Assembly (NCBI RefSeq): GCF_028583425.1
Contig: NC_072800.1
Location: 95,573,001 to 95,637,000, forward strand
DNA: 64,000 nt
Direction of reading: 5' to 3'
Origin: Eublepharis macularius
Lineage: Eukaryota; Chordata; Lepidosauria; Squamata; Eublepharidae
Shown here: one piece after another, positions 14,093 to 64,000 of the stretch
How positions within the stretch are numbered: position 1 is the stretch's first letter
Layout of the letters: the number at the start of each line of letters is the position of its first letter
Program-made: the position numbers and the translations under genes
The notes under the pieces: model-generated
Databases searched by the model: none
The model's input: only the letters and a program-made list of their open reading frames with translations
Told to the model about the DNA's origin: nothing

Positions 14093-14649
14093 TCAGGGGC
14101 GCTGGGCCTGCTCGAGCTGCTGGTGCTGGCTGCGCACGGCGAAGCGGTTGACGTGCACCGGGATGGGCACGACGATCTTGGGGTTCCGGACGGGCTCGCC
14201 GGCGCGGCCGCTGACGTTGCCGGCCTTGATGCGCTTCCACTTGGCGCGCCGGTTCTGGAACCAGATCTTGACCTGCACCTCGCTGAGCTTGAGGGCGTGC
14301 GCGATCTGCGAGCGCTCCGTCAGCGACAGGTACTTCTTGCAGTGGAACTCCTTCTCCAGCTCCAGCAGCTGCTCGCTCGTGAAGGCCGTGCGCCGCCGCC
14401 GGCTCTTGCCCGGGCCGCCCGAGGCCCCCGCCGCCGCCGCGCCCCCCAGCGGCGCCTCGCCCCCGCCGCCGCCCCGCCGGGCCTTGCCCTTGGCCGCCGG
14501 GCCTCCGGCCGCCCCGTCCAGCGGCGGCTCCTCTTCGCTCTCCGCCTCGGCCGAGCTGTCGTCGTCCTCGCGCTCGCTGCCGCCCGCCGCCGCCGCCTCG
14601 CCTGGCCGCCCCGCCGGCTTCTCCTCGTCCGAGCTGTAGGCCTTCCCCT
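14093..14649 (-). CDS. GBX1: GBX1 exon 2 (homeodomain exon)
   Basis: On the minus strand the acceptor is TGTCCCGCAG/AGGGGAAGG. The exon encodes the acidic linker, the GGA-rich spacer, the homeodomain and the C-terminal tail, and ends QAQRP with TGA at 14095-14093. Confidence 0.96.
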
Positions 14650-24139: not shown

Positions 24140-24840
24140 TGCCTGTCAGGCATTTTATTGCCTGACATTTTAATTCCACCCCATTAAGTCCCTTACAGGG
24201 TAGAGAGTTGTACTTTCTGGACACTCTTCAAGGGCAGCCCCACACACAGTGCACTGCAGTAATCTAATTTAGATGTTAACCAGGCATGCACCAAAATGGC
24301 CAGATCTTTTCTGCCCAGGGAAGACCACAGCTTCTTCACCGGCTGAAGCAGACAGAAGGGACCGCTGGCCACCACGGCCACCTGTCCATCCGTCAGAAAG
24401 CCCAGGCTGCAAGCCTGCTCTTCTGGGGGGACCGGGGCCCCATCCAGAACAGAAGACTGTTGGCACCTGGTCGGTCCACACTCCAGCAGCATCTCCATCT
24501 TGTCAGGATTGAGTTCCTTCATTTATTGGCCTTCATCCACTCCAAAACTGCCTCCAGCCACCCCTGCTACTTCTCCACATCCTCTCAGGGGTTTGCTGAA
24601 ACCGTGAGACAGAGCCCGGCATTGCCTGCAGATTGGTGATAACGCAGCCCACGTCTCTGGAAGGCCAGGGGGTTTATGTAGCTGTTGAAGGGCATGGGGG
24701 TGGGGGTGGGGAGATGGAACCTGGTGGGACCGCAGAGGCCACGGGCCCAAACAACGTCCACGCAACTCTTCATTTGGAAAGCTGCCTTCCAGGCTGGACA
24801 GAAACTACCACCAAATAGTGCTTCGGAATGGCTCTAGTGA
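24140..24840 (-). mobile_element. L2-type LINE fragment (reverse transcriptase C-terminal part)
   Basis: The minus strand encodes remnants such as AWLTSKLDYCSALCVGLPLK and LGRKDLAILVHAWL, matching the C-terminal region of L2-clade reverse transcriptases (LDYCNALYxGLP consensus). Broken and 5'-truncated. Confidence 0.7.
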
Positions 24841-39700: not shown

Positions 39701-42700
39701 ATGACTTGTTACTGTTTAATTTGTCTATCAGCCTTAGAACTTCATAACTTGTCGAATTGGTTTGACTCTGTTTTCCCAACATCTCCCATAAAAATAGCAG
39801 CTGTGGCGTGAGTAACTGCCTGACGTTTTCCACAGACAGGCAGGGTGTATTCTATTTCTCTGCAGTCTCCCAATCTGCCTTTAGCCACCCTTTCTCCCCT
39901 TTTTTTGTCTAAGGGTCCCATCGCCTCCCTGGTCAGTTTCCTGTCATTTAAGAGCTGCTTATTCATTGTTGTAATGTTTTGAGTAACCCACTCCTCAAAT
40001 TCTCTGTGTGCTCACCTCTGGGGCACTCCTTTTGCCAGAGCCTGCGCTCCTGTCTAGCCACTTCATTTGGGAAGCCTGCCACTTGCTCAGGGGTTCCTTA
40101 ACTGTGCTCATTAACCTGGCTGGCAGATGTGGGCGTAACTTTCCTGATGACCACCATAACTTTCACCCGTGCTTCCATTATTGTGGCTTTAAATGATTTC
40201 CATGCACACTGCAGAGATTTGACCTTCCTTGCCCTCCTCTCAGCTTCCCTTCGGCTGATCTCTATGGGCAGGAAGGCAGGCATTGGACCTCTCAGCCTGG
40301 GAAACGTGGCAGCTGCTGCCCTCCTCCAGCCCTCCTCCAAAGGGACGCCTGTTGCCCCAGGGACCTCGAGGGGCCAAGAGGGTGGCAGGCCACAGGGGTG
40401 GAAGCTGCACGGGCCACGCACTTGTGGCTGGGGCTTCTGCCTGTGGAATAGACCCAGGACTGCAGGCTCACCTGCACAAGCTCAGCTGGGACAGCCTCTT
40501 CCCACTCCTCTGTGACACGCACACGCTCATAACTGTTGACCAGGGCCTCGATTGTGCGGGGGGAGGCACAGCAATGGCGAAGCACCTGCATGGGAGGGAA
40601 AGAGTGAGAGAGAGAGAGATGCTGCAGGACATGGCACAGGCGCAACACCACACAAAAGCCAGAATGGCAGTATTTCAGAGGTGGAGAAACCATAGAATCA
40701 TAGAGCTGGAAGGGTCCCCCAAGGGTCATCTAGTCCAACACCCGACACAGTGCAGGAAATTCACACCTACCCCCCTCCACTCCCTCAGTGATCCCTGATC
40801 AATGCCTGGAGGAAGGCAAAAACCCTCCAGGATCCTCAGTCAATCTGGCCTGGAGGAAAATTCCTTCCTGACCCCGAAGCGGCAGTCGGCATTACCCAAG
40901 GCATGTGAGGAAGGGCCAAGAGAGCCAAGCGCCGGCTCTTCCCTTCATGCCCTCCCTTCATACTGAGTCATAGCCTCCTCACAGGAGGCCCTCTACCCTC
41001 TGCTTAAAAGCCTCCAAAGAAGGAGCATCCAGCACCTCCTGAGGAAGCCTGTTCCACTGAGGGACCGCTCTAACTGTCAGGAAGTTCTTCCTAATGTTTA
41101 GCCGAAAGCTCTTAATGTCAACCCATTGGTTCTGGTCCGACCTGGAGCAGCGGAAAACAACTCCACGCCATCCTCTACATGGCAGCCCTTCAAGTACTTG
41201 GAGATGGTTAATTGTATCACCTCTCAGTCGTCTCCTCTCCAGTACTCCAAATGAGGTCTAACCACCTTGGGGCCCCTGTTTGGGGGGGGAAGGGAGAATG
41301 CAAGTGTTTCAAAATATAAATAAATAAATAAATAATCAGAGGATGGTAAAGTGGTACCATTACATCACATGATCTGAATGCTAGTTCTGTTGATGCAGCC
41401 CAAAATCACACTGGCCTTTTTAGCTGCCACATCACACTGCTGGCTCATGTTCAGTGTATGGTCTACTAAGACCCGTAATTCCTTTTGATTTGTACTACTG
41501 CCAAGACAAGTCTTATGAATCCTGTAATTAGGAATTTGATTTTTTTTTTATCTAAACGCAGAACTTTGCATTTATCCCTGCTGAAATTCCTTTTATTTGT
41601 TTTTGCCCAGTTTCCCAGCCTATCAAGATCATCCTATATCTTGACTCTCTTCTACTATATTTGCTATCCCTCCCAATTTAGTATCGTCTGCAAATTTAAT
41701 AAGCATTCCCTCTATTCCTTCATCCAAATCAATAATAAAAACGTTGAACAGAACAGGTCCCAGGACTGATCCCTGAGGAACTCCACTTGTCACTCTTCTC
41801 CAAGAGGACGAGGAACCACTAACTAGCACTCTTTGCGTGCAATCTGTCAACCAATTACAAATCCACCTACCAGTAGTAGGATCCAAACCACATTTTCCCA
41901 GCTTATCAACAAGAATATCATGCAGGACTTTATCAAAAGCCCAACTGAAATCAAGATAAACTATGTCTGTAACATTCCCCTCATCCACCAAAGTAGTAAC
42001 ATCAGACAAGGAGATAAGGTTAGCCTGACATGACTTCTTGCTGAGGAACCCGTGCTGACCTTTAGAAATCTCAGCCTGCAGAGTGTCCAGTTATCTGAGA
42101 CTGTGGTCAGCTCTTCTGCTCACTGGTCACCCATTTGCGTTTCTTTGAGGATATGAACAAGTGATGCTTGTTGGGAAGGCAGAGATCTTGAAAGACATTG
42201 TACTCCCCACTTTCGATGGAGTTCGTCTGACCCTTGCAGACTCGGTTAAGAGCCTGGGGGTTATACTGGATCCAGTGCTACTACTAGAAAAACAAGTTAA
42301 GGCAGCCACAAAAAATGCTTACTACAATCTCACTCTAGCCTGGAAGATGGCTTCTTATCTCGACACAGCTGACATGGCCACTTGGATCCACGCTATGGTA
42401 ACATCAAAACTTGACTATTGTAATACACTATACATTGGTCTCCCACCCATCTAAGTTAACTAGGAGGCTCCAATTGGTGCAAAATGCTGCAGCTCAACTA
42501 TTATCAGGAGCAAGCAGGAGCTTGAACATCACTCCCATCCTACAGTCACTCCATTGGCTAACTATCAGTTACCGTGCTCAGTTCAAGGTACTGGTTATTA
42601 CATACAAAGCTCTTCACAGCCTTGGCCCAGCATACCTACGGGACCGCCTCCCTCCCAATGTCCCTCCATGGCAGCTTCGCTCATCTGAACAGGGTCTCTT

Positions 42701-45700
42701 GCAGGTGCCACCCTGCACATGGGCGAAATCAACAGCAGCCTGCACATGGGCTTTCTCTGTGGTGGCCCCTACCCTGTGGAACGGCCTGCCTGAGGAAGTC
42801 AGAAGAGCCCCCACTCTCCTGGCTTCCCACAAACGATGCGAAAGCGAATTATTCAAAAAGGCTTTTTACTCAAATGGGAGGGACATTGTAGGGATGGGGT
42901 CTCAGATGCTTCGCTAATGAGTTAGGGACCATAGACTTCATCACTATATTGCCTTACATATTATCTGTTGCTTTAAATATGCACTCCTTGTCAGGGCTTG
43001 CCGCCGCTGCCGCTAGGCGTGGCACTGGGCGGTCTGCTCCTGACGTCACAGGGGGGCCAGGGATTCTGCAGGACCCTGCTCTGTGGAAGGAGGGGCGGTA
43101 TACCTCACCCAGACTCCCTCTCAGTCCACTCGCTGGCCTGCTCAACCTGGCCTGCTTACCCTCTGCGTCCTCCTTCGTCTCCTCCTTCCAGAACTCTCCT
43201 CCAAACCTCCACCCTTGCATCTTACTGCTCTCACTCCACATCATCACTCCTCACTCACACCCACCACCACAGGGCTCTTCCCAGCCAGCTTTTATAGGGC
43301 TTCCTTCTACTGCCCCACCCCTCTTCCAGCCTGGCCTTGGGCTGCACCAAGCAGTTGCAGCTGGGGTAGCTGATCTGGCCCCACTGACCAGCACCAGCTG
43401 TGCCTTGTTCTCTGGCTGCCCAGCCTCCCTGCCTTGGCTGATTGCTGAAGGCATGTCCAGCTGCAGTCCCCTGGCTAGCAGCCCAGCCTCCCTGGCAGAG
43501 CTGATGGCTGAAGGTGGGTCCAGCTGCGGCTCCTTGGCTGGTTGCCCAGGGCTTCCTGCAGAGTGCCTCCAATAGCCCCACCTGGAGTGGCTTGGCTTTT
43601 GGCAACTCCTGGGCCCGGCTACTATTTTCTAGCTGGGGCGTGGCTTTGGGTTGTTGGGGCTGCTGCTGCTTCTCCTCCTCAGGTAAGGTCTTTGGGTGGG
43701 TGACTGCTGGGCTCCCAATCCCTCTGCCCTTGCCCCCTTCCGCCTTGCCTAGCCCCCTTTCCCTCCCTAGGGGAGTGGACTCGCTGGCCTCTCTCTGTCT
43801 CCCCCTGCCTCCTGAGGCCCTGGGCTTTTGCCCCTTGCCCCTGGCACCGGCAGGTTCTGGCTCCATTTGCCTGTGTGAGGGGTTGACCTGCTGTCCCCCA
43901 GCTGCCCCCTCTGCCTGCCAGTCAGACCGGTTGACCTGCTGTCAGCTGGCTGACCAGTTGACCTGCTGTCTGCTGGCTGCCCCCTCTGTTTGCCCGTCAG
44001 CCCGGCTGACTTGCTGTTCCCTCCTACCAAGTCTGGGGGCTGGGACCCAGCCCCCGGACACTCCTAGGTACCACTTGTGCTCCATGTTGTCTAATGTCAG
44101 TCCTAGAATTGATTATGTTCTGCTTCAGTATTTCTTCTACTCTGTATTGGATCCTTGCTAATGGTATGTCTTTTCATCTTGTATCTTTTTACCCAATGGC
44201 ATTGTTTATGGAAATGTCCTTGATACTGATTGTATTAATCTCATACTATGTAATCTGCCTTGAGTCTCAGTGAGAAAGGCGGACTACAAACAAACAAACA
44301 AACAAACAAACAAACAAACAAACACTCATAAGAGCACCAGAAGAGCCCCGTTGCTGAGACCAGTTATCTATCTAATTCAGCATCGTGTTTCTCACAGGAT
44401 GCTGAATTTCTCACAGCCCTGAAGGGCCAACAGGCAAGCCACAAAGGCCGAGGCCCTTCCCCCGATGTTGCCTCTTATCCTCTGGATGTGGAGGCTCCCT
44501 TATCTCCCCTTGGCTCATAGCCACGGACTGACCTGTCCTCCAAGAATCTAATTCCCTTTTAACCATTCTTGTTGCCATCACGACATCCTCTGGCAAAGAA
44601 TTGCACGTCTTCATTACTCGTTGTGTAAAGAAGGATCTCATTTTGTCGGCCACAAATCTACTGGCTGTCCGGTTCACTGCATGCCTTTAAGAGTGTGCAT
44701 TCTCTTAAAGGAACAGACTTGACAATGTTACTACACGGCTAGTTTTTGTATTATGTGCAATTCGAATAGTCTATAATGATTGAATGTATTGTATTTATTG
44801 GCTGTATATCTGATCTTGTATGAACTATTAAGTATAGCTATATATTCATATATGCGCTACGCCACTTTATACACTAGTACAGCTATATTGCTTATTTATA
44901 CATTTGGCTATTCCAATTAGTGACTATACCTTGATTTATCTTTGACGTTTATTGGGATAGTAGCATTCCTGGGCCTCCAGTTCATAGAATCATAGAATCA
45001 TAGAGTTGGAAGGGGCCATACAGACCATCTAGTCCAACCCCCTGCCCAGTGCAGAATCAGCCTAAAGCATCTCTGACAAGTATTCATCCAGCCTCTTCTT
45101 GAAAACTGCCAGTGAGGGGGAGCTCACCACCTCCCCAGACAGCTGGTTTCACCTTTGAACTACTCTGACCGTGAAAAAGTTTTTCCTAATATCCAGCCGG
45201 TACCTTTGTGCATGTAGTTTTAGCCCATTGCTTCGCGTCCTACCCTCTGCTGCCAACTGGAACAGCTCCTTGCCCTCCTCCAAATGACAGCCTTTCAAAT
45301 ACTTAAAGAGAGCAATCATGTCCCCCCTCAACCTTCTCCAAACTAAACATTCCCAAGGCCCTCAGCCTTTCCTCGTAGGGCTCAGTCTCCAGACCCCTGA
45401 TCATCCTCGTCGCTCTCCTCTGCACCCTCTCGATTTTGGCCACAAAATTGTGGCTTGGCCACTCCGTTTGTTTGCCTTTTCACTGGGAGAGCCTCTTTTT
45501 TGTTGCCCTCCCATCTGGGGATGGCGACTCTAGCTGGAGTTTCAATTTTCAGACATGTAAAAAGTTCTTGGGAGGAAGGTGGTGGCCCCTGCCCACCCCA
45601 GTCACAGAGCCCAGAGGCCCGGGCATGCCCTGGAGACTCATGCAAACGAACCCGGAAGTGGAAGGCCCCACGGAAGGGTTGCCAGGTCCACATCGGGAAA

Positions 45701-47977
45701 TTCCTGGAGATTTTGGGGGTGGAGCCTGGAGAGGGTGGGGTTTAGGGAGGGGAGGGGCCTCAGAATGGTTATAATGCCACAGAGTCCACCCTCCAAGCAG
45801 CCATTTCCCCCAGGGGAAGTGATCTTTGTCACCGGGAGATCAGTTGTAATTCCGGGAGATGCCCAGCCACCACCTGGAGACTGGCAACCCTACCCCAGGG
45901 GCCAAAGGAGGCTGGCCACTTCCGAGGAAAGGCTAGTGGGGCTGGGGTGGGGGGGAGGCACCACAGCGTGGCTTCCAGCACAGTCACCCTCTGCAGGGCA
46001 CAAGCCACCGCCCTCTCCCATCCTCCTCCTCCTCCTCCTCCTCCTCCTCCTCCTCCACATGCTCTTCCAACTGCTCCCATTCTGTTGGCCGTACCTTGAG
46101 AAGGGCTCCTGGCCAGACCCGGACCGCCCCATGGTTGAGCAGGTCCCGCACCACCTGCTCCGGCTGGTGGTCCAGCTTGTAGGATGCCACTTGCAGGATG
46201 TTGTGCATGGCTGTGTTGCCACTGTAGCTCATGATGTTGACGTTGGCCCCCTGGGCAAGGAGCAGCTCTACCACTCCGGGGTTGGTGTTCTTGCAGGCCT
46301 GGTGGAGCGGGCGCTGGCGATCACGGTCAGAGGTGTTCACGTGGGCACCAACATTCACCAGCTGCTGGCACACTTGGTAATAGTCCTCCATGGCATGGGG
46401 AGGGTGCGACTGGGCACAGGCCGCGTTCAGCGGTGTTTGTCCCTCAGTGTTCCTGGCCTCCAGGCTGGCTCCATAGCTCAGGTAAAGCCGCACGTGCTCC
46501 ACCAGGCCAAGCCGTGCAGCCATGTGCAGGGGGGTGTCCTCTTCCTCCTCAGAGATGCTGTTCACGCTTGCAGCATGGCGCAGCAGGAGCTGAGCACACC
46601 TGGAAGAGTGAGACATTTCTTCAAGGGCAGCCAAACCATGGGCCAGGCCCACCCCGGTGGCTTCCTCCAGGTGCGGGGGAACGGCCATCACGCCAGCCCC
46701 TCACCTCGAGGCCTGCCTGGCTTTGAAGGGCCCCGCCCTTGTCAAAGGCCACACAGTCCTCTCACAGTTCCCTTAGCTGAGCTCTGGTGCCTTAGAATAA
46801 CTAAGCACCTCTGCAGGGGGGGGGGGAGCACTCACGCAAAGGATCCTGCGCTCTGGCACAGGTGCAAGGGCTTGAACCCATCCTCAGAGATGGCCTCGGG
46901 GTCAGCACCAGAAGAGAGGAGGAGCCTGACGCAGTCCGTCATGGCCGCTGTGCAGGCCACGTGCAGCGCTGTCTGGCCCCCAGGGGCCAAGTCCACCTCT
47001 GCCCCCCGGAGCAGCAGATGGCGCAGGCAGTCCACGTAGCCACGGCTTGCTGTGATATGGAGAGGGGTGGTGAGCTCCTGCTTGTAGGTCAGTGCCCAGA
47101 GCCCTGCAGGAGAGATGGTCAGAGCGTCAGGATCCAGGCAGCGCCACGCACTGTCCGGCTAACAGGGCACTCTAGGCATGCTTGGACAGGTCTCTCTGGG
47201 CCTCAGGCCTGCGGGACAAGGGAGGGATCGCCCTAGTCCGGCAGCCCGCCCGCCTGCCCGCCCGCCCCCAGCTGCTGCCAGCCCCAGGAAGGGACCGGGG
47301 TTTCCAGGTCCAGGTTGGGAAATCCCTGGAAATTTTGGGGGTGGAGCCTAGAAAGGGTTGGGTTTGGGGAGGGGCCTCGGTGGGGTATAATGCCATAGAC
47401 TCCACCCTCCGAAGCAGCCATTTTCTCCAGGGGAACTGATCTTTGTCACCTGGAGATCACTAGTAATTCCAGGAGATCTCCAGCCACCACTTGGAGGCTG
47501 GCAACCCTAGAAGAGACAGGCCCTTCCTTCTCCACCACCCAAGGCCCACCTGCCTGCGCGCTCTCCCTCCCCAGCAGCGGCCCTGCCCAGCCGCTGAGCT
47601 TCCGGGGGCCCTGTGCTCCCCTCCGCTCAGCTGCTTCCTGCCTGCCAGCCCCTCTCCCCCAACACACTCAGCCAGCGGGAATTGAAGCGGTAGTTCTTCC
47701 ACTCCTCCAGGTCACTGGTGTCAAAGACAGAGTTGGGGCCCACCCCACCCTGGGGGTCTCCAAGGAGGCAGACGATGGCGCGCCCGTCTCCAGCGAGGAG
47801 GGCCTGCCAGAAGGCCTGAGCAGGGCCCTTTGCCTTGGCAGTCACAATGGGCTCCATGAAGGATGCCTCCGGCCCCAGTGGGGCTGGTCTGAAGAATGAG
47901 GGGGAATCTCTGGGACCAAAGGGCTGCGGCAAGGCGAAGAAGGGACGCCCTGCTGCCAGGGAGTCCGGTTGCAGCAT
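36534..47977 (-). CDS. ASB10: ASB10, ankyrin repeat and SOCS box protein 10 (five exons, complete)
   Basis: Substrate-recognition subunit of a Cullin-5/Elongin BC ubiquitin ligase; in mammals expressed in muscle/heart and in the eye outflow tissue (family knowledge). Exons (minus strand) are 47977-47668, 47103-46836, 46599-46095, 40585-40472 and 36719-36534. All junctions are GT/AG and phases agree, giving 460 residues against 467 in human. The N-terminus contains [14 protein letters not shown] and [15 protein letters not shown]. About seven ankyrin repeats follow (about residues 112-358; [68 protein letters not shown]). The C-terminal SOCS box has the BC box [12 protein letters not shown] and a Cul5-box-like [13 protein letters not shown], and ends FEDVLY. 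Intron 3 is 5.5 kb and full of LINEs; intron 4 is 3.8 kb. Confidence 0.95.
36920..37650 (-). mobile_element. old CR1/L3-type LINE fragments with a Penelope-like scrap
   Basis: TGCGGCAGTGAATTCCACAA, GAATTGTGCACATTATTCCA and ATGTGGTCACAGCATAGA are typical of the reverse complement of CR1/L3 3' regions. At 37080-37118 a GCATAAGCTTTTGTGAGC..CTCAGG block resembles the Penelope-like hammerhead region. In ASB10 intron 4. Confidence 0.5.
37651..38526. other. ASB10 intron 4, unannotated part
   Basis: No coding sequence or confident repeat; includes an ATTTATTATTTATTTACATTATTTATA tail-like stretch near 37921-37950, probably a LINE tail. Confidence 0.35.
38527..38757 (-). mobile_element. tRNA-derived SINE, reverse orientation
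   Basis: The complement of a SINE head (AACCACTTAACCACTCTGC) and of a B-box (GTGGGATTCCAACC) sit at the right end; the left end carries CTTCTAGACAGATGAGTGCC and GAACAATGTCGGGGTTATC. Related to, but distinct from, the Sauria copies. Confidence 0.65.
38880..39290 (+). mobile_element. CR1-type LINE 3' end
   Basis: GGCCAGGTTGGACAAATTCC, the aspartate-poor C-terminal region, TTGGCCCTCCAGGGCTACTGG and AGGAGGCTGGACTAGATGGG mark a CR1 3' region. Confidence 0.6.
39405..39510 (-). mobile_element. CR1 LINE 3' end fragment
   Basis: AAGCATAGAACGAGTTGGAAG and CCAGTCCAACCCTCTGCCC are the complement of the CR1 terminus. Confidence 0.65.
39511..40471. other. ASB10 intron 4, unannotated part next to exon 4
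   Basis: About 960 bp without a recognisable gene. 39540-40280 has the look of an old LINE or other repeat body on the minus strand, but no motif settles the family. Confidence 0.35.
40472..40585 (-). CDS. ASB10: ASB10 exon 4
   Basis: A 114-bp in-phase exon with acceptor CTCCCATGCAG/GTGCTT and donor GTGCAG/GTGAGC. It encodes 38 residues including [16 protein letters not shown], matching mammalian CPRTIEVLMNTY. It is separated from exon 3 by 5.5 kb of repeats. Confidence 0.93.
40692..42075 (-). mobile_element. CR1 LINE, 3' half (reverse transcriptase and 3'UTR)
   Basis: The minus strand encodes [38 protein letters not shown] and [13 protein letters not shown] (RT motifs, with the catalytic DD in FADD), followed by a degraded C-terminus and the 3'UTR (CATAGAATCATAGAGCTGG at 40690-40708). 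It is a better preserved copy than the others, 5'-truncated. In ASB10 intron 3. Confidence 0.85.
42105..44324 (+). mobile_element. L2-type LINE 3' half, interrupted by a solo LTR
   Basis: It encodes [75 protein letters not shown] and [20 protein letters not shown], the C-terminal region of an L2-clade RT, then a 3'UTR and a (CAAA)n tail (44285-44324). The 3'UTR is split at 42988/44061 by a solo LTR. Confidence 0.82.
42989..44060. mobile_element. solo LTR with 5-bp target duplication
   Basis: A 1072-bp GC-rich segment starts TGTCAGGGC and ends GCCCCCGGACA, so it has TG...CA ends with an imperfect terminal inverted repeat. It is flanked by CTCCT on both sides (42984-42988 and 44061-44065). The related L2 at 26693-27545 shows the uninterrupted site with a single CTCCT. 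No internal retroviral region is present, so it is a solo LTR, a fossil left by recombination between two LTRs. The family is not recognised. It contains TTGACCTGCTGT-type tandem repeats (43883-44020). Confidence 0.85.
44325..44675 (-). mobile_element. CR1 LINE 3' fragment, right member of the mirrored pair
   Basis: The reverse-oriented counterpart of 26350-26692, joined to the same end of the same L2 tail. Confidence 0.7.
44985..45435 (-). mobile_element. CR1 LINE 3' end
   Basis: A tandem ATAGAATCATAGAATCATAG (complement of the CR1 8-bp terminal repeats) followed by CATCTAGTCCAACCCCCTGC. Minus-strand peptide [14 protein letters not shown] and [16 protein letters not shown] is the CR1 RT C-terminus. 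Confidence 0.8.
45675..45891 (+). mobile_element. MITE with AGGGTTGCCAG terminal inverted repeats, copy 1
   Basis: It starts AGGGTTGCCAGGTCC and ends ACTGGCAACCCT. The interior holds TTTTGGGGGTGGAGCCTGGA and CCCAGGGGAAGTGATCTTTG. 217 bp, non-coding. I recognise this as a frequent squamate repeat. Confidence 0.7.
46020..46056. repeat. (CCT)n trinucleotide repeat
   Basis: About 12 units, 39-75 bp past the donor of ASB10 exon 3, intronic. Confidence 0.9.
46095..46599 (-). CDS. ASB10: ASB10 exon 3 (ankyrin repeats)
   Basis: Acceptor CACTCTTCCAG/GTGTGC, donor CTCAAG/GTACGG. It encodes [20 protein letters not shown] through [16 protein letters not shown]. The polyglutamate run predicted just beyond the donor (CTC repeat, 46020-46056) is intronic. 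Confidence 0.95.
46836..47103 (-). CDS. ASB10: ASB10 exon 2 (ankyrin repeats)
   Basis: Acceptor TCTCCTGCAG/GGCTCTGG, donor TTTGC/GTGAGT. It encodes [34 protein letters not shown] and [20 protein letters not shown]. Confidence 0.94.
47297..47508 (+). mobile_element. MITE with AGGGTTGCCAG terminal inverted repeats, copy 2
   Basis: The same element and orientation as 45675-45891 (GGGGTTTCCAGGTCCAGG start, GGCTGGCAACCCT end), located in ASB10 intron 1. Confidence 0.7.
47668..47977 (-). CDS. ASB10: ASB10 exon 1
   Basis: ATG at 47977-47975. It encodes 103 codons plus one base, with donor CTGGCTGA/GTGTGT. The split codon rebuilds arginine to give RWLRLWALTY, which matches the mammalian RALRLWSLTY. 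The first 40 residues, rich in proline and phenylalanine, are the variable N-terminus. Confidence 0.92.
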
Positions 47978-52384: not shown

Positions 52385-53085
52385 GCAAACATTTTTAGCC
52401 CACCTTTCCTCATGGTTCAAGGCCCCTTACAATAGTAGATCAAAATACCTACAGTTAAAACCAAAATAAAATAACCACCCCCGAGTCCCCCTTAAAAGAC
52501 GCCTGCTGTTCAAACCCCCGCCAAACAAGGCAGCTTCACGTGACACCTGAAGACCTCCAAGGAAGGGGCCCCCTCCCCTCTTCAGGGCGGCCATTCCACA
52601 GGCCAGGGGCCTCAGGAGGAAAGCGTGCGCTCAGGTCTGTGCCAGGCAGGCGTCCTCAGGAGTGGTGGGACAGCAAACAGGCGGTTGCCTGAAGACCACC
52701 GTTGGCACACCTGGAGGGATGGAAGTGGATGGCTCTTCTCATGTGTGGGTCATTATTTAGCGGCCATAACCAGCACCTTGAAAGGAGTCTGGAAACAGAA
52801 GGCCAACCAACCGAGTTATTTCAGAACGGGCAACGTATGTCCCCAGCCGCAGTCCATGCCAACCTGCTTTCAAAGCACAAGGCAGGTTTCTGAGCACCCC
52901 GAACTCTTAACTTGCAATGAAAAAGACAACTCCACTTTATCCAGGACAAGGAGATTCAGTCCCTCTAGAATATTGGCCTTCCCGAGCAGCAATACCCCCG
53001 TCTTGTCTGGATCCAGGTTCAGTTTGTTCTGCCTCAGCCACCTGATAACATCCCCGAAGCACTGGCTCAGAACCAAGATGGACAC
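52385..53085 (-). mobile_element. L2-type LINE, cut at its 5' side by the LTR element
   Basis: The minus strand reads WLRQNKLNLDPDKTGVLLLG (L2 RT motif) near 52980-53050, and a tail (TAGCCCACCTTTCCTCATGG complement) lies at 52395-52420. The match stops at 53085, where TGTAACG begins. Confidence 0.6.
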
Positions 53086-56000
53086 TGTAACGAAATGGGT
53101 GCCAAGGGTGAAACCCGATTGCCTAGGCCCTAAATGTGGAGGGCCTGGGAGGCAGCAGAAAGGGGGGAAAAGGCAGTTAGTCACCTTCTTGGTTGGAGGA
53201 GGAGAGGCTCCTGCTGCTGGATGAAACCCGGGTGCCTGGGCCCTAAATGTGGAGGGCCTGGGAGGCAGCAGAAGGGGAATAAAGAGAGTCACCCTTCTTA
53301 GTTGAAGAAGGAGAGGCTCCTGCTGTGGGGTGAAACCCGGGTGCCTAGGCCCTAAATGTGGAGGGCCTGGGAAGCAGCAGAAAAGGAATAAAGAGAGTCA
53401 CCCTTCTTGGTTGAAGAAGGAGAGGCTCCTGCTGTGGGGTGAAACCCGGGTGCCTAGGCCCTAAACGTGGAGGGCCTGGGAGGCAGCAGAAAGGAAACAA
53501 AAAGGGAGTCACCCTTCTTGGCTGAAGAAGGAGAGGCTCCTGCTGCTGGGTGAAACCCGGGTGCCTAGGCCCTAAATGTGGAGGGCCTGGGAGGCAGCAG
53601 AAAGGTAATAAAGAGAGTCACCCTTCTTGGTTGAAGAAGGAGAGGCTCCTGCTGCTGGGTGAGACCCGGGTGCCTGAGCCCTAAGTGTGGAGGGCCTGGG
53701 AGGCTGCAGAAAGGGAATAAAGAGAGTCACCCTTCTTGGTTGAAGGAGGAGAGGCTCCTGCTGCTGGGGGAAACCCGGGTGCCTGGGCCCTAAATGTGGA
53801 GGGCCTGGGAGGCAGCAGAAAGGGAATAAAGAGAGTCACCCTTCTTGGTTGAAGAAGGAGAGACTCCTGCTGCTGGGTGAGACCCGGGTGCCTGGGCCCT
53901 AAATGTGGAGGGCCTGGGAGGCAGCAGAAAGGGAATAAAGAGAGTCACCCTTCTTGGCTGAAGAAGGAGAGGCTCCTGCTGCTGGGTGAAACCCGGGTGC
54001 CTAGGCCCTAAATGTGGAGGGCCAGGGAGGCAGCAGAAAGGGAATAAAGAGAGTCACCCTTCTTGGCTGAAGAAGGAGAGGCTCCTGCTGCTGGGTGAGA
54101 CCCGGGTGCCTGAGCCCTAAGTGTGGAGGGCCTGGGAGGCAGCAGAAAGGGAATAAAGAGAGTCACCCTTCTTGGCTGAAGAAGGAGAGGCTCCTGCTGC
54201 TGGGTGAGACCCGGGTGCCTGAGCCCTAAGTGTGGAGGGCCTGGGAGGCAGCAGAAAGGGAATAAAGAGAGTCACCCTTCTTGGGTGATGGAGGAGAGGC
54301 TCCTGCTGCTGGGTGAAACCCGGGTGCCTGGGCCCTAAGTGTGGAGGGCCTGGGAGGAAGCAGAAGGGGAATAAAGAGAGTCACCCTTCTTGGTTGAGGA
54401 AGGAGAGGCTCCTGCTGCTGGGTGAGACCCGGGTGCCTGGGCCCTAAGTGTGGAGTGCCTGGGAGGCAGCAGAAAGGGAATAAAAGAGAGTCACCTTCTT
54501 GGTTGAAGAAGGAGAGGCTCCTGCTGCTGGGTGAGACCCGGGTGCCTGGGTCCTAAATGTGGAGGGCCTGGGAGGCAGCAGAAAGGGAATAAAGAGAGTC
54601 ACCCTTCTTGGCTGAAGAAGGAGAGGCTCCTGCTGCTGGGTGAAACCCGGGTGCCTAGGCCCTAAATGTGGAGGGCCTGGGAGGCAGCAGAAAGGGAATA
54701 AAGAGAGTCACCCTTCTTGGTTGAAGAAGGAGAGGCTCCTGCTGCTGGGTGAGACCCGGGTGCCTGGGTCCTAAATGTGGAGGGCCTGGGAGGCAGCAGA
54801 AAGGGAATAAAGAGAGTCACCCTTCTTGGTTGAAGAAGGAGAGGCTCCTGCTGCTGGGGGAAACCCGGGTGCCTGGGCCCTAAGTGTGGAGGGCTTGGGA
54901 GGCAGCAGAAAGGGAATAAAGAGAGTCACCCTTCTTGGTTGAGGAAGGAGAGGCTCCTGCTGCTGGGTGAGACCCGGGTGCCTGGGTCCTAAATGTGGAG
55001 GGCCTGGGAGGCAGCAGAAAGGGAATAAAGAGAGTCACCCTTCTTGGTTGAAGAAGGAGAGGCTCCTGCTGCTGGGTGAGACCCGGGTGCCTGGGCCCTA
55101 AATGTGGAGGGCCTGGGAGGCAGCAGAAAGGGAATAAAGAGAGTCACCCTTCTTGGTTGAAGAAGGAGAGGCTCCTGCTGCTGGGTGAGACCCGGGTGCC
55201 TGGGTCCTAAATGTGGAGGGCCTGGGAGGCAGCAGAAAGGGAATAAAGAGAGTCACCCTTCTTGGTTGAAGAAGGAGAGGCTCCTGCTGCTGGGTGAGAC
55301 CCGAGTGCCTGGGCCCTAAATGCGGAGGGCCTGGGAGGCAGCAGAAAGGGAATAAAAGGGAGTCACCCTTCTTGGTTGAGGAAGGAGAGGCTCCTGCTGC
55401 TGGGTGAGACCCGGGTGCCTGGGCCCTAAATGTGGAGGGCCTGGGAGGCAGCAGAAAGGGAAATAAAAGGGAGTCACCCTTCTTGGGTGAGGAAGGAGAG
55501 GCTCCTGCTGCTGGGTGAAACCCGGGTGCCTGGGTCCTAAATGTGGAGGGCCTGGGAGGCAGCAGAAAGGGAATAAAGAGAGTCACCCTTCTTGGTTGAA
55601 GAAGGAGAGGCTCCTGCTGCTGGGTGAAACCCGGGTGCCTGGGCCCTAAATGTGGAGGGCCAGGGAGGCAGCAGAAAGGGAATAAAAGGGAGTCACCCTT
55701 CTTGGTTGAAGAAGGAGGGGCTCCTGCTGCTGGGTGAGACCCGGGTGCCTGGGCCCTAAGTGTGGAGGGCCTGGGAGGCAGCAGAAAGGGAATAAAGAGA
55801 GTCACCCTTCTTGGTTGAAGGAGGAGAGGCTCCTGCTGCTGGGGGAAACCCGGGTGCCTGGGCCCTAAGTGTGGAGGGCCTGGGAGGCAGCAGAAAGGGA
55901 ATAAAGAGAGTCACCCTTCTTGGTTGAAGGAGGAGAGGCTCCTGCTGCTGGGGGAAACCCGGGTGCCTGGGCCCTAAGTGTGGAGGGCCTGGGAGGCAGC

Positions 56001-59000
56001 AGAAAGGGAATAAAGAGAGTCACCCTTCTTGGTTGAAGGAGGAGAGGCTCCTGCTGCTGGGGGAAACCCGGGTGCCTGGGCCCTAAGTGTGGAGGGCCTG
56101 GGAGGCAGCAGAAAGGGAATAAAAGAGAGTCACCTTCTTGGTTGAAGAAGGAGAGGCTCCTGCTGCTGGGTGAGACCCGGGTGCCTGGGCCCTAAATGTG
56201 GAGGGCCAGGGAGGCAGCAGAAAGGGAATAAAAGGGAGTCACCCTTCTTGGCTGAAGAAGGAGAGGCTCCTGCTGCTGGGTGAGACCCGGGTGCCTAGGC
56301 CCTAAGTGTGGAGGGCCTGGGAGGCAGCAGAAAGGGAATAAAGAGAGTCACCCTTCTTGGTTGAAGGAGGAGAGGCTCCTGCTGCTGGGGGAAACCCGGG
56401 TGCCTGGGCCCTAAATGTGGAGGGCCTGGGAGGCAGCAGAAAGGGAATAAAGAGAGTCACCCTTCTTAGTTGAGGAAGGAGAGGCTCCTGCTGCTGGGTG
56501 AGACCCGGGTGCCTAGGCCCTAAGTGTGGAGGGCCTGGGAGGCAGCAGAAAGGGAATAAAGAGAGTCACCCTTCTTAGTTGAGGAAGGAGAGGCTCCTGC
56601 TGCTGGGTGAGACCCGGGTGCCTGGGCCCTAAGTGTGGAGGGCCTGGGAGGCAGCAGGAAGGAAACAAAAAGAGGGTCACCTTCTTGGTTGAAGAAGGAG
56701 AGGCTCCTGCTGCTGGGTGAAACCCGGGTGCCTAGGCCCTAAATGTGGAGGGCCTGGGAGGCAGCAGAAAGGGAATAAAGAGAGTCACCCTTCTTGGTTG
56801 AAGAAGGAGAGGCTCCTGCTCCTGGGTGAAACCCGGGTGCCTGGGCCCTAAATGTGGAGGGCCAGGGAGGCAGCAGAAAGGGAATAAAAGGGAGTCACCC
56901 TTCTTGGTTGAAGAAGGAGAGGCTCCTGCTGCTGGGTGAGACCCGGGTGCCTAGGCCCTAAGTGTGGAGGGCCTGGGAGGCAGCAGAAAGGGAATAAAGA
57001 GAGTCACCCTTCTTGGTTGAAGAAGGAGAGACTCCTGCTGCTGGGGGAAACCCGGGTGCCTGGGCCCTAAATGTGGAGGGCCTGGGAGGCAGCAGAAAGG
57101 GAATAAAGAGAGTCACCCTTCTTAGTTGAGGAAGGAGAGGCTCCTGCTGCTGGGTGAGACCCGGGTGCCTGGGCCCTAAGTGTGGAGGGCCTGGGAGGCA
57201 GCAGAAAGGGAATAAAAGAGAGTCACCTTCTTGGTTGAAGAAGGAGAGGCTCCTGCTGCTGGGTGAAACCCGGGTGCCTAGGCCCTAAATGTGGAGGGCC
57301 TGGGAGGCAGCAGAAAGGGAATAAAGAGAGTCACCCTTCTTGGTTGAAGAAGGAGAGGCTCCTGCTGCTGGGTGAAACCCGGGTGCCTGGGCCCTAAATG
57401 TGGAGGGCCAGGGAGGCAGCAGAAAGGGAATAAAAGGGAGTCACCCTTCTTGGTTGAAGAAGGAGAGGCTCCTGCTGCTGGGTGAGACCCGGGTGCCTAG
57501 GCCCTAAGTGTGGAGGGCCTGGGAGGCAGCAGAAAGGGAATAAAGAGAGTCACCCTTCTTGGTTGAAGAAGGAGAGGCTCCTGCTGCTGGGTGAAACCCG
57601 GGTGCCTGGGCCCTAAATGTGGAGGGCCTGGGAGGCAGCAGAAAGGGAATAAAGAGAGTCACCCTTCTTGGTTGAAGAAGGAGAGGCTCCTGCTGCTGGG
57701 TGAGACCCGGGTGCCTGGGCCCTAAGTGTGGAGGGCCTGGGAGGCAGCAGAAAGGGAATAAAGAGAGTCACCCTTCTTGGTTGAAGGAGGAGAGGCTCCT
57801 GCTGCTGGGGGAAACCCGGGTGCCTGGGCCCTAAGTGTGGAGGGCCTGGGAGGCAGCAGAAAGGGAATAAAGAGAGTCACCCTTCTTGGTTGAAGGAGGA
57901 GAGGCTCCTGCTGCTGGGGGAAACCCGGGTGCCTGGGCCCTAAGTGTGGAGGGCCTGGGAGGCAGCAGAAAGGGAATAAAAGAGAGTCACCTTCTTGGTT
58001 GAAGAAGGAGAGGCTCCTGCTGCTGGGTGAGACCCGGGTGCCTGGGCCCTAAATGTGGAGGGCCAGGGAGGCAGCAGAAAGGGAATAAAAGGGAGTCACC
58101 CTTCTTGGCTGAAGAAGGAGAGGCTCCTGCTGCTGGGTGAGACCCGGGTGCCTAGGCCCTAAGTGTGGAGGGCCTGGGAGGCAGCAGAAAGGGAATAAAG
58201 AGAGTCACCCTTCTTGGTTGAAGGAGGAGAGGCTCCTGCTGCTGGGGGAAACCCGGGTGCCTGGGCCCTAAATGTGGAGGGCCTGGGAGGCAGCAGAAAG
58301 GGAATAAAGAGAGTCACCCTTCTTAGTTGAGGAAGGAGAGGCTCCTGCTGCTGGGTGAGACCCGGGTGCCTAGGCCCTAAGTGTGGAGGGCCTGGGAGGC
58401 AGCAGAAAGGGAATAAAGAGAGTCACCCTTCTTAGTTGAGGAAGGAGAGGCTCCTGCTGCTGGGTGAGACCCGGGTGCCTGGGCCCTAAGTGTGGAGGGC
58501 CTGGGAGGCAGCAGGAAGGAAACAAAAAGAGGGTCACCTTCTTGGTTGAAGAAGGAGAGGCTCCTGCTGCTGGGTGAAACCCGGGTGCCTAGGCCCTAAA
58601 TGTGGAGGGCCTGGGAGGCAGCAGAAAGGGAATAAAGAGAGTCACCCTTCTTGGTTGAAGAAGGAGAGGCTCCTGCTGCTGGGTGAAACCCGGGTGCCTG
58701 GGCCCTAAATGCGGAGGGCCTGGGAGGCAGCAGAAAGGGAATAAAAGGGAGTCACCCTTCTTGGTTGAGGAAGGAGAGGCTCCTGCTGCTGGGTGAGACC
58801 CGGGTGCCTGGGCCCTAAATGTGGAGGGCCTGGGAGGCAGCAGAAAGGGAAATAAAAGGGAGTCACCCTTCTTGGGTGAGGAAGGAGAGGCTCCTGCTGC
58901 TGGGTGAGACCCGGGTGCCTGGGTCCTAAATGTGGAGGGCCTGGGAGGCAGCAGAAAGGGAATAAAGAGAGTCACCCTTCTTGGTTGAAGAAGGAGAGGC

Positions 59001-62000
59001 TCCTTCTGCTGGGTGAAACCCGGGTGCCTAGGCCCTAAATGTGGAGGGCCTGGGAGGCAGCAGAAAGGGAATAAAGAGAGTCACCCTTCTTGGTTGAAGA
59101 AGGAGAGGCTCCTGCTGCTGGGTGAGACCCGGGTGCCTGGGCCCTAAGTGTGGAGGGCCTGGGAGGCAGCAGAAAGGGAATAAAGAGAGTCACCCTTCTT
59201 GGTTGAAGGAGGAGAGGCTCCTGCTGCTGGGGGAAACCCGGGTGCCTGGGCCCTAAGTGTGGAGGGCCTGGGAGGCAGCAGAAAGGGAATAAAGAGAGTC
59301 ACCCTTCTTGGTTGAAGGAGGAGAGGCTCCTGCTGCTGGGGGAAACCCGGGTGCCTGGGCCCTAAGTGTGGAGGGCCTGGGAGGCAGCAGAAAGGGAATA
59401 AAAGAGAGTCACCTTCTTGGTTGAAGAAGGAGAGGCTCCTGCTGCTGGGTGAGACCCGGGTGCCTGGGCCCTAAATGTGGAGGGCCAGGGAGGCAGCAGA
59501 AAGGGAATAAAAGGGAGTCACCCTTCTTGGCTGAAGAAGGAGAGGCTCCTGCTGCTGGGTGAGACCCGGGTGCCTAGGCCCTAAGTGTGGAGGGCCTGGG
59601 AGGCAGCAGAAAGGGAATAAAGAGAGTCACCCTTCTTGGTTGAAGGAGGAGAGGCTCCTGCTGCTGGGGGAAACCCGGGTGCCTGGGCCCTAAGTGTGGA
59701 GGGCCTGGGAGGCAGCAGAAAGGGAATAAAGAGAGTCACCCTTCTTGGTTGAAGGAGGAGAGGCTCCTGCTGCTGGGGGAAACCCGGGTGCCTGGGCCCT
59801 AAGTGTGGAGGGCCTGGGAGGCAGCAGAAAGGGAATAAAAGAGAGTCACCTTCTTGGTTGAAGAAGGAGAGGCTCCTGCTGCTGGGTGAGACCCGGGTGC
59901 CTGGGCCCTAAATGTGGAGGGCCAGGGAGGCAGCAGAAAGGGAATAAAAGGGAGTCACCCTTCTTGGCTGAAGAAGGAGAGGCTCCTGCTGCTGGGTGAG
60001 ACCCGGGTGCCTAGGCCCTAAGTGTGGAGGGCCTGGGAGGCAGCAGAAAGGGAATAAAGAGAGTCACCCTTCTTGGTTGAAGGAGGAGAGGCTCCTGCTG
60101 CTGGGGGAAACCCGGGTGCCTGGGCCCTAAATGTGGAGGGCCTGGGAGGCAGCAGAAAGGGAATAAAGAGAGTCACCCTTCTTAGTTGAGGAAGGAGAGG
60201 CTCCTGCTGCTGGGTGAGACCCGGGTGCCTAGGCCCTAAGTGTGGAGGGCCTGGGAGGCAGCAGAAAGGGAATAAAGAGAGTCACCCTTCTTAGTTGAGG
60301 AAGGAGAGGCTCCTGCTGCTGGGTGAGACCCGGGTGCCTGGGCCCTAAGTGTGGAGGGCCTGGGAGGCAGCAGGAAGGAAACAAAAAGAGGGTCACCTTC
60401 TTGGTTGAAGAAGGAGAGGCTCCTGCTGCTGGGTGAAACCCGGGTGCCTAGGCCCTAAATGTGGAGGGCCTGGGAGGCAGCAGAAAGGGAATAAAGAGAG
60501 TCACCCTTCTTGGTTGAAGAAGGAGAGGCTCCTGCTGCTGGGTGAAACCCGGGTGCCTGGGCCCTAAATGTGGAGGGCCAGGGAGGCAGCAGAAAGGGAA
60601 TAAAAGGGAGTCACCCTTCTTGGTTGAAGAAGGAGAGGCTCCTGCTGCTGGGTGAGACCCGGGTGCCTAGGCCCTAAGTGTGGAGGGCCTGGGAGGCAGC
60701 AGAAAGGGAATAAAGAGAGTCACCCTTCTTGGTTGAAGAAGGAGAGACTCCTGCTGCTGGGGGAAACCCGGGTGCCTGGGCCCTAAGTGTGGAGGGCCTG
60801 GGAGGCAGCAGAAAGGGAATAAAAGAGAGTCACCTTCTTGGTTGAAGAAGGAGAGGCTCCTGCTGCTGGGTGAGACCCGGGTGCCTAGGCCCTAAGTGTG
60901 GAGGGCCTGGGAGGCAGCAGAAAGGGAATAAAGAGAGTCACCCTTCTTGGTTGAAGGAGGAGAGGCTCCTGCTGCTGGGGGAAACCCGGGTGCCTGGGCC
61001 CTAAATGTGGAGGGCCTGGGAGGCAGCAGAAAGGGAATAAAGAGAGTCACCCTTCTTAGTTGAGGAAGGAGAGGCTCCTGCTGCTGGGTGAGACCCGGGT
61101 GCCTAGGCCCTAAGTGTGGAGGGCCTGGGAGGCAGCAGAAAGGGAATAAAGAGAGTCACCCTTCTTAGTTGAGGAAGGAGAGGCTCCTGCTGCTGGGTGA
61201 GACCCGGGTGCCTGGGCCCTAAGTGTGGAGGGCCTGGGAGGCAGCAGAAAGGGAATAAAAGAGAGTCACCTTCTTGGTTGAAGAAGGAGAGGCTCCTGCT
61301 GCTGGGTGAAACCCGGGTGCCTAGGCCCTAAATGTGGAGGGCCAGGGAGGCAGCAGAAAGGGAATAAAAGGGAGTCACCCTTCTTGGTTGAAGAAGGAGA
61401 GGCTCCTGCTGCTGGGTGAGACCCGGGTGCCTAGGCCCTAAGTGTGGAGGGCCTGGGAGGCAGCAGAAAGGGAATAAAGAGAGTCACCCTTCTTGGTTGA
61501 AGAAGGAGAGGCTCCTGCTGCTGGGTGAGACCCGGGTGCCTGGGCCCTAAATGCGGAGGGCCTGGGAGGCAGCAGAAAGGGAATAAAAGGGTGAACCTTC
61601 CCTGAGACCCCCCCCTTAAGGCAGAGTAGGGAACAGTGTGGTAGGGAAAGCAGACGGCGGTTCTCTGCAGTTTGATTTTCTGCCCTGTGGGGTTCTGAAC
61701 AGGGGGGGTCTACCCCTATGTGTGGTGCCTTTACCTGCTTTGTATACAGTGCTCTGTATATAGTTATTAAATTACACTTTCTTGGAATATAAAGGACCTT
61801 GTGGTGCTCTGACTACGTAAGCTCCCCCACTTGGCACGCTACAGGGAGGGAGGGAGCCCAGGAGAACTGATCAGGCCAGATCTTGGTGGGTTGCCAATTC
61901 TTCAGGGCCCACCCAAAGATTGGGGAATGCACTTCCCAGTAGGGAAATTCAGCCAGAGGGGTCTCACTGCCCCTCAGTCAGGCGGTGTACAATTCGGTGA

Positions 62001-62126
62001 GTGGTGGCAGCGACGAAGAGTGGGATCCACGCCCACCAGGGACGGTGGGAGGCAGATAGCGGGGCTAGCAGGCGATCGATGGCGGCTCAGTTGCCCGGAC
62101 TGAGAGCCAGCACCCATTCCGCCACA
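53086..62126 (+). mobile_element. probable 5' LTR of a Ty3/gypsy-like element, containing the tandem array
   Basis: Sequence from TGTAACG (53086) to CCGCCACA (62126) has TG...CA ends and is followed after 2 nt by a primer-binding site. It includes the 110-bp array and then a unique part with TATATAG (about 61755-61765) and ATTAAA (about 61766-61771), plausible promoter and polyadenylation signals. The 3' limit is uncertain: CTACA at 61843 or GTACA at 61991 are alternatives. The LTR is fossil material; only one copy is complete in the window. Confidence 0.5.
53108..61590 (+). repeat. 110-bp tandem array, about 77 units, with higher-order structure
   Basis: The unit starts GTGAAACCCGGGTGCCTGGG and ends CTCCTGCTGCTGGG; neighbouring units are about 90-98% alike. 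It accounts for about 8.5 kb. A variant unit carrying GCAGGAAGGAAAC occurs at 56654, 58511 and 60370, giving a super-period of 1857-1859 bp (about 17 units). Units at the left edge (53108-53530) are the most divergent. Nearly every unit carries AATAAA on the plus strand. Long minus-strand frames here are a by-product of a unit without stops in some frames. Confidence 0.95.
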
Positions 62127-63840
62127 CGTGGTGGCAGCAGTGGGGATCGAACACCAGAGCACCGAATAGTGGGGGGTAGACCTACCCCCCCCCAGAGCAC
62201 CTAGCAGGCACAAACACACTGAACAGACCAAAAAGGGCTTTCTGTTTCTTTTTCGGGCTACAGAGTAGGGACAGTTTAGCTAGGTAGCATGGAAAAAGAA
62301 ATCCTTGCTAGACTTTCAGTGCTGAAAAAGCATGAATTGCAGGAGGAGTGTAGACTCCAAGGCATTGATCCAGGAGACATGACGGTGGGTGAACTGAAAT
62401 ACCATCTGACATCTCGTTATAAAGCTGCTGCCCCTGAGAAGTCCAGCTCCTCCGAGGCAGTAGAATTGGAAAGGATACGCCTGCTACAGATCGAGCGACA
62501 GGCAGAAGCTCGCAGACAGGAACTGGAGATGGAGAGGGAGATGAAGAAAGCTGAGATGGAGATGAAGAAAGCCGAGAGGGAGATGGAAAAGCAGCGTCTT
62601 CTGGCACAAGAGGAGCAGCGTAGACATGAACGCCTTCAAGTGGGTCAAAGCAACAAGATCAGAGTCACTCCCAAGGATTTCGTCCCCTACAAAGAGGGGG
62701 AAGACCCGTCAGTCTATTTGTCCAACTTCGAAAAGGCAGAAACTCAGTGGGGTCTGGCAGAAACAGACTTCATGGCCTACCTCTGCAGCCTCTTGACAGG
62801 GGAGTTGGCTGCAGTGTACCATAGCATGCCTAGCCAGGACGGAGGAATCACCTTCAAAGATTTCAAGTCGGCTGTGTTTAAACGGTTCCAGTTGGGACCC
62901 AACCATTTTCGCAAACAGTTTAGGGCCTTAAGCCCACTGCAGTGTAAATCCTATATGGCGTATAGGATGGCGTAAACTGGGAGAAATGTGGGAAAGGTGG
63001 CTAACTGAAGCCAAGGTAAATGATCTGAAGGGGGTGTCCCAACTGATACTCCTTGATCAGCTGTACTCCAAGGTGCCTAGGGAGTTACAATGCCTGATCA
63101 AGGACAAGGAGCCCAGAACCCTCGCTGAGGCCACTGACCTGGCAGACAAGCTGGTAGCCCACCGAGAAGGGGTGGAGTGGGAAAATGGGGCAGGGGGGCG
63201 GGGCCCGAGGGGTGGAAAACCAAGCCCCCCTCCTTGGAGAAGGGAAGTTATTACCCCAGCGGGCCCTAAGAAAACCCCAGAGATGGCCATGAGAAACAAA
63301 GCCCCTAGTCGAACGTGTTATCATTGTGGGGACCCAGGGCATATAAAAATTACTTGCCCTAAATTGCAAACAGCATCTCCCAACCCCTCTCCTACAGTGC
63401 CAGCTGTCTCAAAGGTGAAAGAAGGGGAGGTGGCATTAGTCCAGCATGAATGCCTCTTTGCCACAATGAGGGCCCTTGATGATTGGGCTGATTTTGTAGA
63501 ACCAGCGAGGGTAAAAGACTAACTGGTTCTAGGGTATGCTGATACGGGTTCATCCATCTCGCTTATAAGGTCTGACCTGGTATCTGACGCGGATGTACTA
63601 CCAAACAAGGTTTTTAAGATTGTGGGGGCTTGTGGAGGATCTCAGACGGTACCAGTGGTAAGGGTGCCCCTGGAATGGAGGGAAAAGGTTTACCGCATGG
63701 AGATGGGGGTGAAGACAGACCAACCTTGCCCAGTACTGCTAGGCAGGGACCTTCTGGCAGGCCAGTTTCCCATAAATGTAGCGACCCGCAGCCAGACCTT
63801 GAAGGGTGAAAAACAGCTGGCCCCAGTTCCGGGCAAGTGA
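62127..63840 (+). mobile_element. Ty3/gypsy-like element, leader, Gag and protease region (fossil, incomplete)
   Basis: The Gag region (62289 to about 63520) begins MEKEILARLSVLKKHELQEE, has a glutamate/arginine coiled coil (about 62460-62640), a capsid part with a SCAN-like FKDFKSAVFKRFQLGPNHFR, and a CCHC zinc knuckle, CYHCGDPGHIKITC (63316-63357). The protease region follows (active-site DTGSS at about 63541-63555; LLGRDLL near 63740). The SCAN-like capsid and this order point to the Gmr1-like group of Metaviridae. RT and integrase are not in the window. It looks broken, with two or three breaks in the part visible. Confidence 0.75.
62129..62152 (+). promoter_or_regulatory. primer-binding site, tRNA-Leu type
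   Basis: TGGTGGCAGCAGTGGGGATC is complementary to the CCA-bearing 3' end of a vertebrate tRNA-Leu (about 21 of 24 positions against my memory of the AAG/TAG isoacceptors). A second, interrupted version occurs at about 62002-62026. Confidence 0.55.
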
Positions 63841-64000
63841 GCCGCGGTCAATGGCCTGCTAGCCCCGCTATCCGCCTCCCACCCTCCCTGGTGGGCGTTG
63901 CTCACACTCTTCGTTGCTGCCACCACTCACCGAATTGTACACCGCCTGACTGAGGGGGCAGTGAGACCCCTCTGGCTGAATTTCCCTACTGGGAAGTGCA
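63818..64000 (-). mobile_element. inverted LTR fragment of the same element family
   Basis: The complement of 63818-64000 matches about 61926-62110 (for example CAGCCAGAGGGGTCTCACTG and GGCGGTGTACAATTCGGTGA). It starts TGGCCCCAG on the plus strand and cuts off the forward element after the protease region. It continues past the window end. Confidence 0.8.

Follow-up and report, generated by a model that had tools for sequence, protein, structure and literature searches.

Satellite DNA can derive from segments of long terminal repeats (LTRs) or from the growth of short tandem arrays carried within an element, as summarized in a review (PMC12628747). The mouse minisatellites Ms6-hm and Hm-2 are reported to have arisen within LTRs of MaLR elements (Kelly 1994, as cited in PMC6947457; PMC9659126), large mouse arrays are described as related to MTA, itself a MaLR LTR (PMC3218096), and the RPCS satellite of Ctenomys is given as LTR-derived in reviews (PMC9659126, PMC6947457). 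In plants, CRM1TR and CRM4TR are described as originating from an LTR plus untranslated region (UTR; PMC3648361). The origin of minisatellites and satellites from LTRs is already known, vertebrates included. Here, we describe a new, large, and well-preserved case from Eublepharis macularius (assembly GCF_028583425.1, contig NC_072800.1, positions 95,573,001 to 95,637,000), in which an array of about 77 units of 109 bp appears to lie within the 5' LTR of a decayed Ty3/gypsy-type element with a SCAN-like Gag. The window, by which we mean this whole stretch of DNA, is 64 kb long and free of N. A preliminary description of the locus had taken it to show that a retroelement can seed satellite DNA, which is right in principle and already published.

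Compared with known systems as their sources present them, the Eublepharis array would resemble Ms6-hm and Hm-2 in being a vertebrate minisatellite born inside a retroelement LTR, but the present element is of Ty3 type and has a SCAN Gag, its repeat unit measures 109 bp, and the array remains flanked by both proposed termini, a primer-binding site (PBS), and gag. The human ERV9 LTR12 likewise carries tandem U3 units, although on a different scale, with 5–17 enhancer repeats of about 41 bp (PMC11853044). In Lathyrus sativus, nine satellites are reported to have grown from short arrays in Ogre elements (PMC7004042); these share with our locus the occasional expansion of short tandem arrays of a Ty3/gypsy element, whereas they belong to a plant, originate in the 3' UTR rather than the LTR, and expanded chiefly in primary constrictions. 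The MALREP satellite of the fish Monopterus albus is listed as derived from a Gypsy LTR (PMC9659126), which would make it another case of a vertebrate Ty3/gypsy LTR as a source of tandem repeats. Squamate reptiles are described as having satellites derived from short interspersed elements (SINEs; PMC10702118), which are likewise retroelement-seeded tandem repeats in vertebrates, although from a SINE and not an LTR. A literature search with exact phrases for tandem repeats within LTRs returned nothing and was too narrow to tell much, and we make no claim that an intra-LTR array of such size is unreported. The value of the locus lies in a minisatellite birthplace that is still legible, as the array, both proposed termini, the PBS, and gag are collinear, and in an array that retains an old edge alongside a young amplified part. 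It would provide an unusually clear snapshot of a mobile element seeding a minisatellite, a process known in other species.

Tandem Repeats Finder (TRF) delineated the array at 53106-61587 (period 109, score 14813), counting 77.6 copies with 94% matches, and the same array also appeared in the output with a period of 437, equivalent to four units. Cutting at the conserved unit head yielded 78 starts, corresponding to 77 full units and one partial unit ending at about 61588. Unit 1 measures 113 bp and the remaining full units 109, 110, or 111 bp, with a mode of 109. Among the 77 full units, 39 distinct sequences were present, and pairwise identity averaged 94.6% with a minimum of 80.9%. The array is thus long, head-to-tail, homogenised, and of higher order, as expected of an LTR-derived minisatellite or satellite. 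The preliminary description had placed about 77 copies of a 110-bp unit at 53108..61590; the array and its copy number hold, and the coordinates agree within 2 bp, but the modal unit is 109 bp. Elsewhere in the window, the unit found only short chance-level matches, the best being an exact match of 15 nt (E 0.038) and the longest 24 nt at 79% (E 5.6).

Our comparison of units by position revealed an array that is old at its left edge and, further right, built by recent block duplications. The age of the left edge is indicated by unit 1, the most divergent of all at 85% identity to the consensus, and by the contrasting share of singletons in units 1-24 and units 25-77 (Table 1). From unit 24 onward, units 17 apart were 97.6% identical and units 34 apart 97.9%, against 94.6–96.1% at the other lags up to 39; when all units were considered, 15 of the 60 pairs separated by 17 units were identical. 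The higher-order repeat accordingly comprises 17 units, or about 1.86 kb. Three exact repeat pairs of at least 700 bp occur within the array (Table 1), and these stretches of 960–994 bp, together with the 17-unit periodicity, show repeated recent block duplication. The young homogeneous blocks are local and span several units, as unequal sister exchange or gene conversion predicts.

Table 1. Features of the array, the proposed element, and the adjacent sequence (window coordinates).
Feature	Position	Strand	Basis or remark
LINE-like open stretch (reverse transcriptase end), reaching the base before the LTR start	52873..53085	-	likeness presumed
Proposed 5' LTR (U3-R-U5), TG...CA, 9,041 bp	53086..62126	+	reciprocal best inverted termini; PBS 2 nt downstream
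Left terminal inverted repeat TGTAACGAAATGGGTGC	53086..53102	+	14/17 to reverse complement of 62110-62126
Tandem array, 77 full units and a partial one	53106..61588	+	TRF, unit-head splitting
Units 1-24, older left part	53107..55732	+	singletons 19/24
Units 25-77, recently duplicated part, 17-unit higher-order repeats	55733..61523	+	singletons 5/53
Exact pair, 973 bp	55848/57705	+	lag 1857
Exact pair, 994 bp	57718/59577	+	lag 1859
Exact pair, 960 bp	55861/59577	+	lag 3716
Unique LTR remainder, then putative R/U5	61589..62126	+	TATATA 61757, ATTAAA 61766, TATAAA 61788
Right terminal inverted repeat GCACCCATTCCGCCACA, proposed LTR end	62110..62126	+	followed by CG, then PBS-like site
PBS-like site TGGTGGCAGCAGTGGGGATCG	62129..62149	+	18/21 to complement of tRNA-Leu 3' end
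Gag open frame 1, N-terminal judging by its position	62289..62975	+	no Pfam match
Gag second open frame, other phase, SCAN and CCHC knuckle	62986..63522	+	Pfam
Protease-like frame, YADTGSS	63523..63840	+	sub-threshold aspartyl protease matches only, best E 0.048
Reverse-oriented copy of 61928-62111 (92%), cut by the window end	63816..64000	-	sequence comparison

The array begins 20 bp inside a TG terminus at 53086, which we propose as the start of the LTR. When TGTGGCGGAATGGGTGC, the reverse complement of GCACCCATTCCGCCACA, was searched against both strands of the window, the best non-self match was the one at 53086, with 14 of 17 positions, and the reverse search returned the same pair of termini; the next matches reached 13 and 12 of 17. 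The pair 53086/62126 would form the inverted TG...CA ends of an LTR retrotransposon. From base composition, 8e-5 matches of this quality are expected within 50 bp to the left of the array, and a control of 4000 random 17-mers drawn from the window produced none that did as well at the 50 starts there. The PBS-like site, scored against what we take to be the 3' end of tRNA-Leu, is the best tRNA-Leu-type site on both strands of the window (runner-up 16/21) and stands next to the proposed 5' LTR, as a PBS does in LTR retrotransposons. Candidate promoter and poly(A) signals (TATATA, ATTAAA, and TATAAA) precede it, and their order, followed by Gag, matches that of an LTR element. Owing to the reciprocal-best termini, the random 17-mer control, and a CA end located 2 nt before the best PBS, the placement of the array within the LTR is supported, not proved. 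The TG-type start at 53086 claimed in the preliminary description was borne out, as was its succession of a unique stretch with TATA-like and ATTAAA signals (61757-61788), a PBS (62129), and a Gag frame (62289); its placement of the array inside an LTR of about 9 kb accords with the termini and the PBS position, the support being positional.

Another LTR end, at 61843 (CTACA), was considered and discarded. The position 53086 was absent among the 12 of 48 matches listed for the inverted 14-mer of this candidate, 184 of 1000 shuffles aligned as well as the gapped match, and no PBS was seen behind it by eye. The 11-mer GTGGTGGCAGC is present at both 62001 and 62128. The PBS core TGGTGGCAGC occurs at 62002 and 62129, within 130 bp, and again in inverted orientation at 63916; the doubling looks as if the junction between LTR and leader had once been duplicated or extended.

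Downstream of the PBS, Gag is split over two open frames in different phases, which would once have formed a single gene; in this state, the copy looks dead or inactive. The second frame carries a zf-CCHC match (8.9e-05), as expected of the Gag of LTR retrotransposons, and a SCAN match (2.8e-06; 27.5 bits, barely above the cut-off of 27) that covers model positions 31-87 of 90, beginning near the start of the frame. Ty3 elements with a SCAN Gag go by the name Gmr1-like, and the capsid found here agrees narrowly, by these bit scores, with the SCAN-like capsid of that group. The same name is used in a paper on frogs (PMC4131045). We do not assign the element to the Gmr1-like clade, as its reverse transcriptase would lie beyond the sequence that was seen: only 160 bp of the window follow the protease-like frame, and Pol is covered no further than that. 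In a PDB sequence search, the second Gag frame came closest to a viral nucleocapsid knuckle (best E 0.019), and the first frame reached a best E of 0.14. The inverted copy at the window end is probably a piece of another LTR or leader of the same family, inserted in reverse. The motif TGTAGCG at 63777 may mark the boundary of this second family member in its reverse orientation.

We lean, with somewhat better than even confidence, toward growth in place, whereby the U3 repeat of an inserted and decayed SCAN-Gag Ty3/gypsy-type copy expanded in the chromosome to about 77 units. A Ty3/gypsy-type element with a SCAN-like Gag would have inserted at 53086 with a U3 that held only a few copies of the 109-bp repeat, starting 20 bp inside the TG terminus. 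After integration, the copy would have decayed, leaving its Gag in two phases, while unequal sister-chromatid exchange, gene conversion, or replication slippage would have expanded the U3 repeat. Growth may have been concentrated in the right two thirds of the array, through several rounds of duplication of 4-unit and 17-unit blocks, and the outcome would be a single-locus minisatellite still framed by both LTR termini. Growth in a dead copy fits better than growth in a mobile one because of the two-phase Gag, the 73 sense-strand AATAAA hexamers within the array, and the young internal block duplications. Exact identity within these blocks extends over almost 1 kb, in contrast to the 8% by which the inverted U5 copy departs from its counterpart. 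In a 3' LTR, the 73 hexamers would precede the proper poly(A) site, and a mobile element would therefore probably have yielded truncated RNA. The interpretation in the preliminary description is thus supported in part: its wording "hugely expanded LTR" suggests a mobile LTR of 9 kb, which fits less well than growth after insertion. If the 3' LTR and solo LTRs of the family were short, the growth of a satellite seed would be dated and polarised in a gene-holding region of a vertebrate chromosome.

Several observations weigh against growth in place within an LTR. A 14/17 match is expected by chance about 0.2 times across both strands of the 64 kb, and when 50 nt from the start of the proposed LTR were aligned locally, with gaps, to the inverted 50 nt from its end, 9 of 1000 shuffles did as well. 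The support for an array inside the LTR comes from position, and the 3' end of the element lies beyond the window. In a shuffle test, the unit displayed no similarity beyond chance to the flanks or to the rest of the LTR, so its derivation from LTR sequence is not demonstrated. The 8% divergence between the U5 copies gives no date for the insertion. The chance expectation of the terminus match and the lack of unit similarity to either flank would also suit an independent host minisatellite beside an ordinary LTR of about 0.5 kb whose start, perhaps 61637 (TGTGGTAGGG), would lie to the right of the array, with the terminus at 53086 coincidental; read directly, 61637 opens with TGTGG, as does the inverted LTR end. 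We nevertheless regard such an arrangement as unlikely. The terminus match stands 20 bp from the array edge, where the expectation is far lower than across the window; 61637 agrees by eye with the inverted LTR end at 7 of 17 positions, against 14 of 17 for 53086; and an LTR starting at 61637 leaves just about 120 bp ahead of the first TATA candidate.

The long array could alternatively be a mobile trait of the family, with active elements carrying many-unit U3 arrays and both LTRs already long at insertion. Variable U3 tandem repeats in other LTRs provide a parallel, as in human LTR12 with its 5–17 copies (PMC11853044), and the diverse left part could be older than the insertion. Such a trait seems quite unlikely, however, as the sense AATAAA hexamers would lie upstream of R in the 3' LTR, several kilobases of U3 would need to be copied and packaged, and the strongest homogeneity is restricted to the right part, as local exchange predicts. 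The broader proposition of a vertebrate Ty3-type family whose mobile LTRs carry U3 arrays of great length, each comprising tens of units that nearly all contain a sense AATAAA, appears decidedly improbable; if true, every insertion would deliver a ready-made satellite, and LTR length would be an evolving, perhaps regulatory, family trait. The exact repeats at lags 1857, 1859, and 3716 mimic a mis-joined repeat, and a shorter array might have been inflated during assembly, for instance by doubling of the 1.86-kb block. We consider an assembly error highly improbable, given that the block copies diverge past the exact stretches, where they differ in unit order and content, and that most of the left 24 units are unique within the array. 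The uniqueness of the left part and the differences between blocks indicate that at least a long array is real.

The properties of the unit were examined by folding a single unit, 55075-55183, against 200 shuffles per test. On the plus strand, 0 of 200 shuffles folded as well as the unit when treated as DNA (z -2.9) and 1 of 200 as RNA; on the minus strand, the corresponding counts were 1 of 200 and 4 of 200. The predicted fold consists of two hairpins with AATAAA in an internal loop, and such hairpins may aid slippage. The evidence on a conserved RNA structure under selection points both ways. Across the 39 distinct units, compensatory double changes were found in 0 of 1287 cells and non-pairing in 25 of 1287, with gaps in 5 of these, both counts speaking against selection on the fold. 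In its favor, stem columns were half as variable as loop columns (mean 0.92 vs 1.84 differing rows, without a significance test). The array contains 46 exact occurrences of CCTTCTT-N5-AAGAAGG and 77 of AGGAG-N3-CTCCT. No canonical G-quadruplex motif was found in it, and 15 motifs were counted when loops of up to 12 nt were allowed. The idea that the unit had degenerated from the LTR sequence flanking it was rejected, since the likeness was equalled by 49 to 148 of 200 shuffles. A short likeness between the LTR start and the unit head (GAAA..GGGTGCC), scored without a shuffle control, is a hint at most.

Relatives of the array and of Gag were also sought in other collections. A pattern of one exact unit gave 0 matches in viral contigs (IMG/VR) and 0 in prokaryote genomes. 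Patterns for Gag produced 2 matches to the second frame in the viral contigs and 19 matches in the prokaryote genomes, 0 of which were confirmed in either set.

Immediately left of the proposed LTR, the minus strand holds the open stretch listed in Table 1, whose likeness to the reverse transcriptase of a long interspersed element (LINE) is our assumption. It is similar to 42161-42259 over 33 amino acids (45%, E 0.002), and 52873-53085 had no Pfam match. The bases directly preceding 53086 read GGACAC. As an independent boundary for the insertion, this flank was set aside, the DNA alignments being too weak to define an edge and Pfam giving 0 matches. LINE-like fragments, presumably pieces of reverse transcriptase, are present at 42161-42259 (+), 42411-42917 (+), and 24484-24548 (-), some of them with a weak resemblance to this left flank; Pfam found no reverse transcriptase in 42411-42914. 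No tRNA gene was detected in the 64-kb window, and Rfam gave 0 matches at gathering scores in 52400-64000. Further from the array, a homeodomain frame at 14093-15574 (-), which we take to be GBX-like, and an ankyrin-repeat frame at 45984-46691 (-), presumably ASB10-like, were observed. With genes present in the window, the array is not located in a gene desert.

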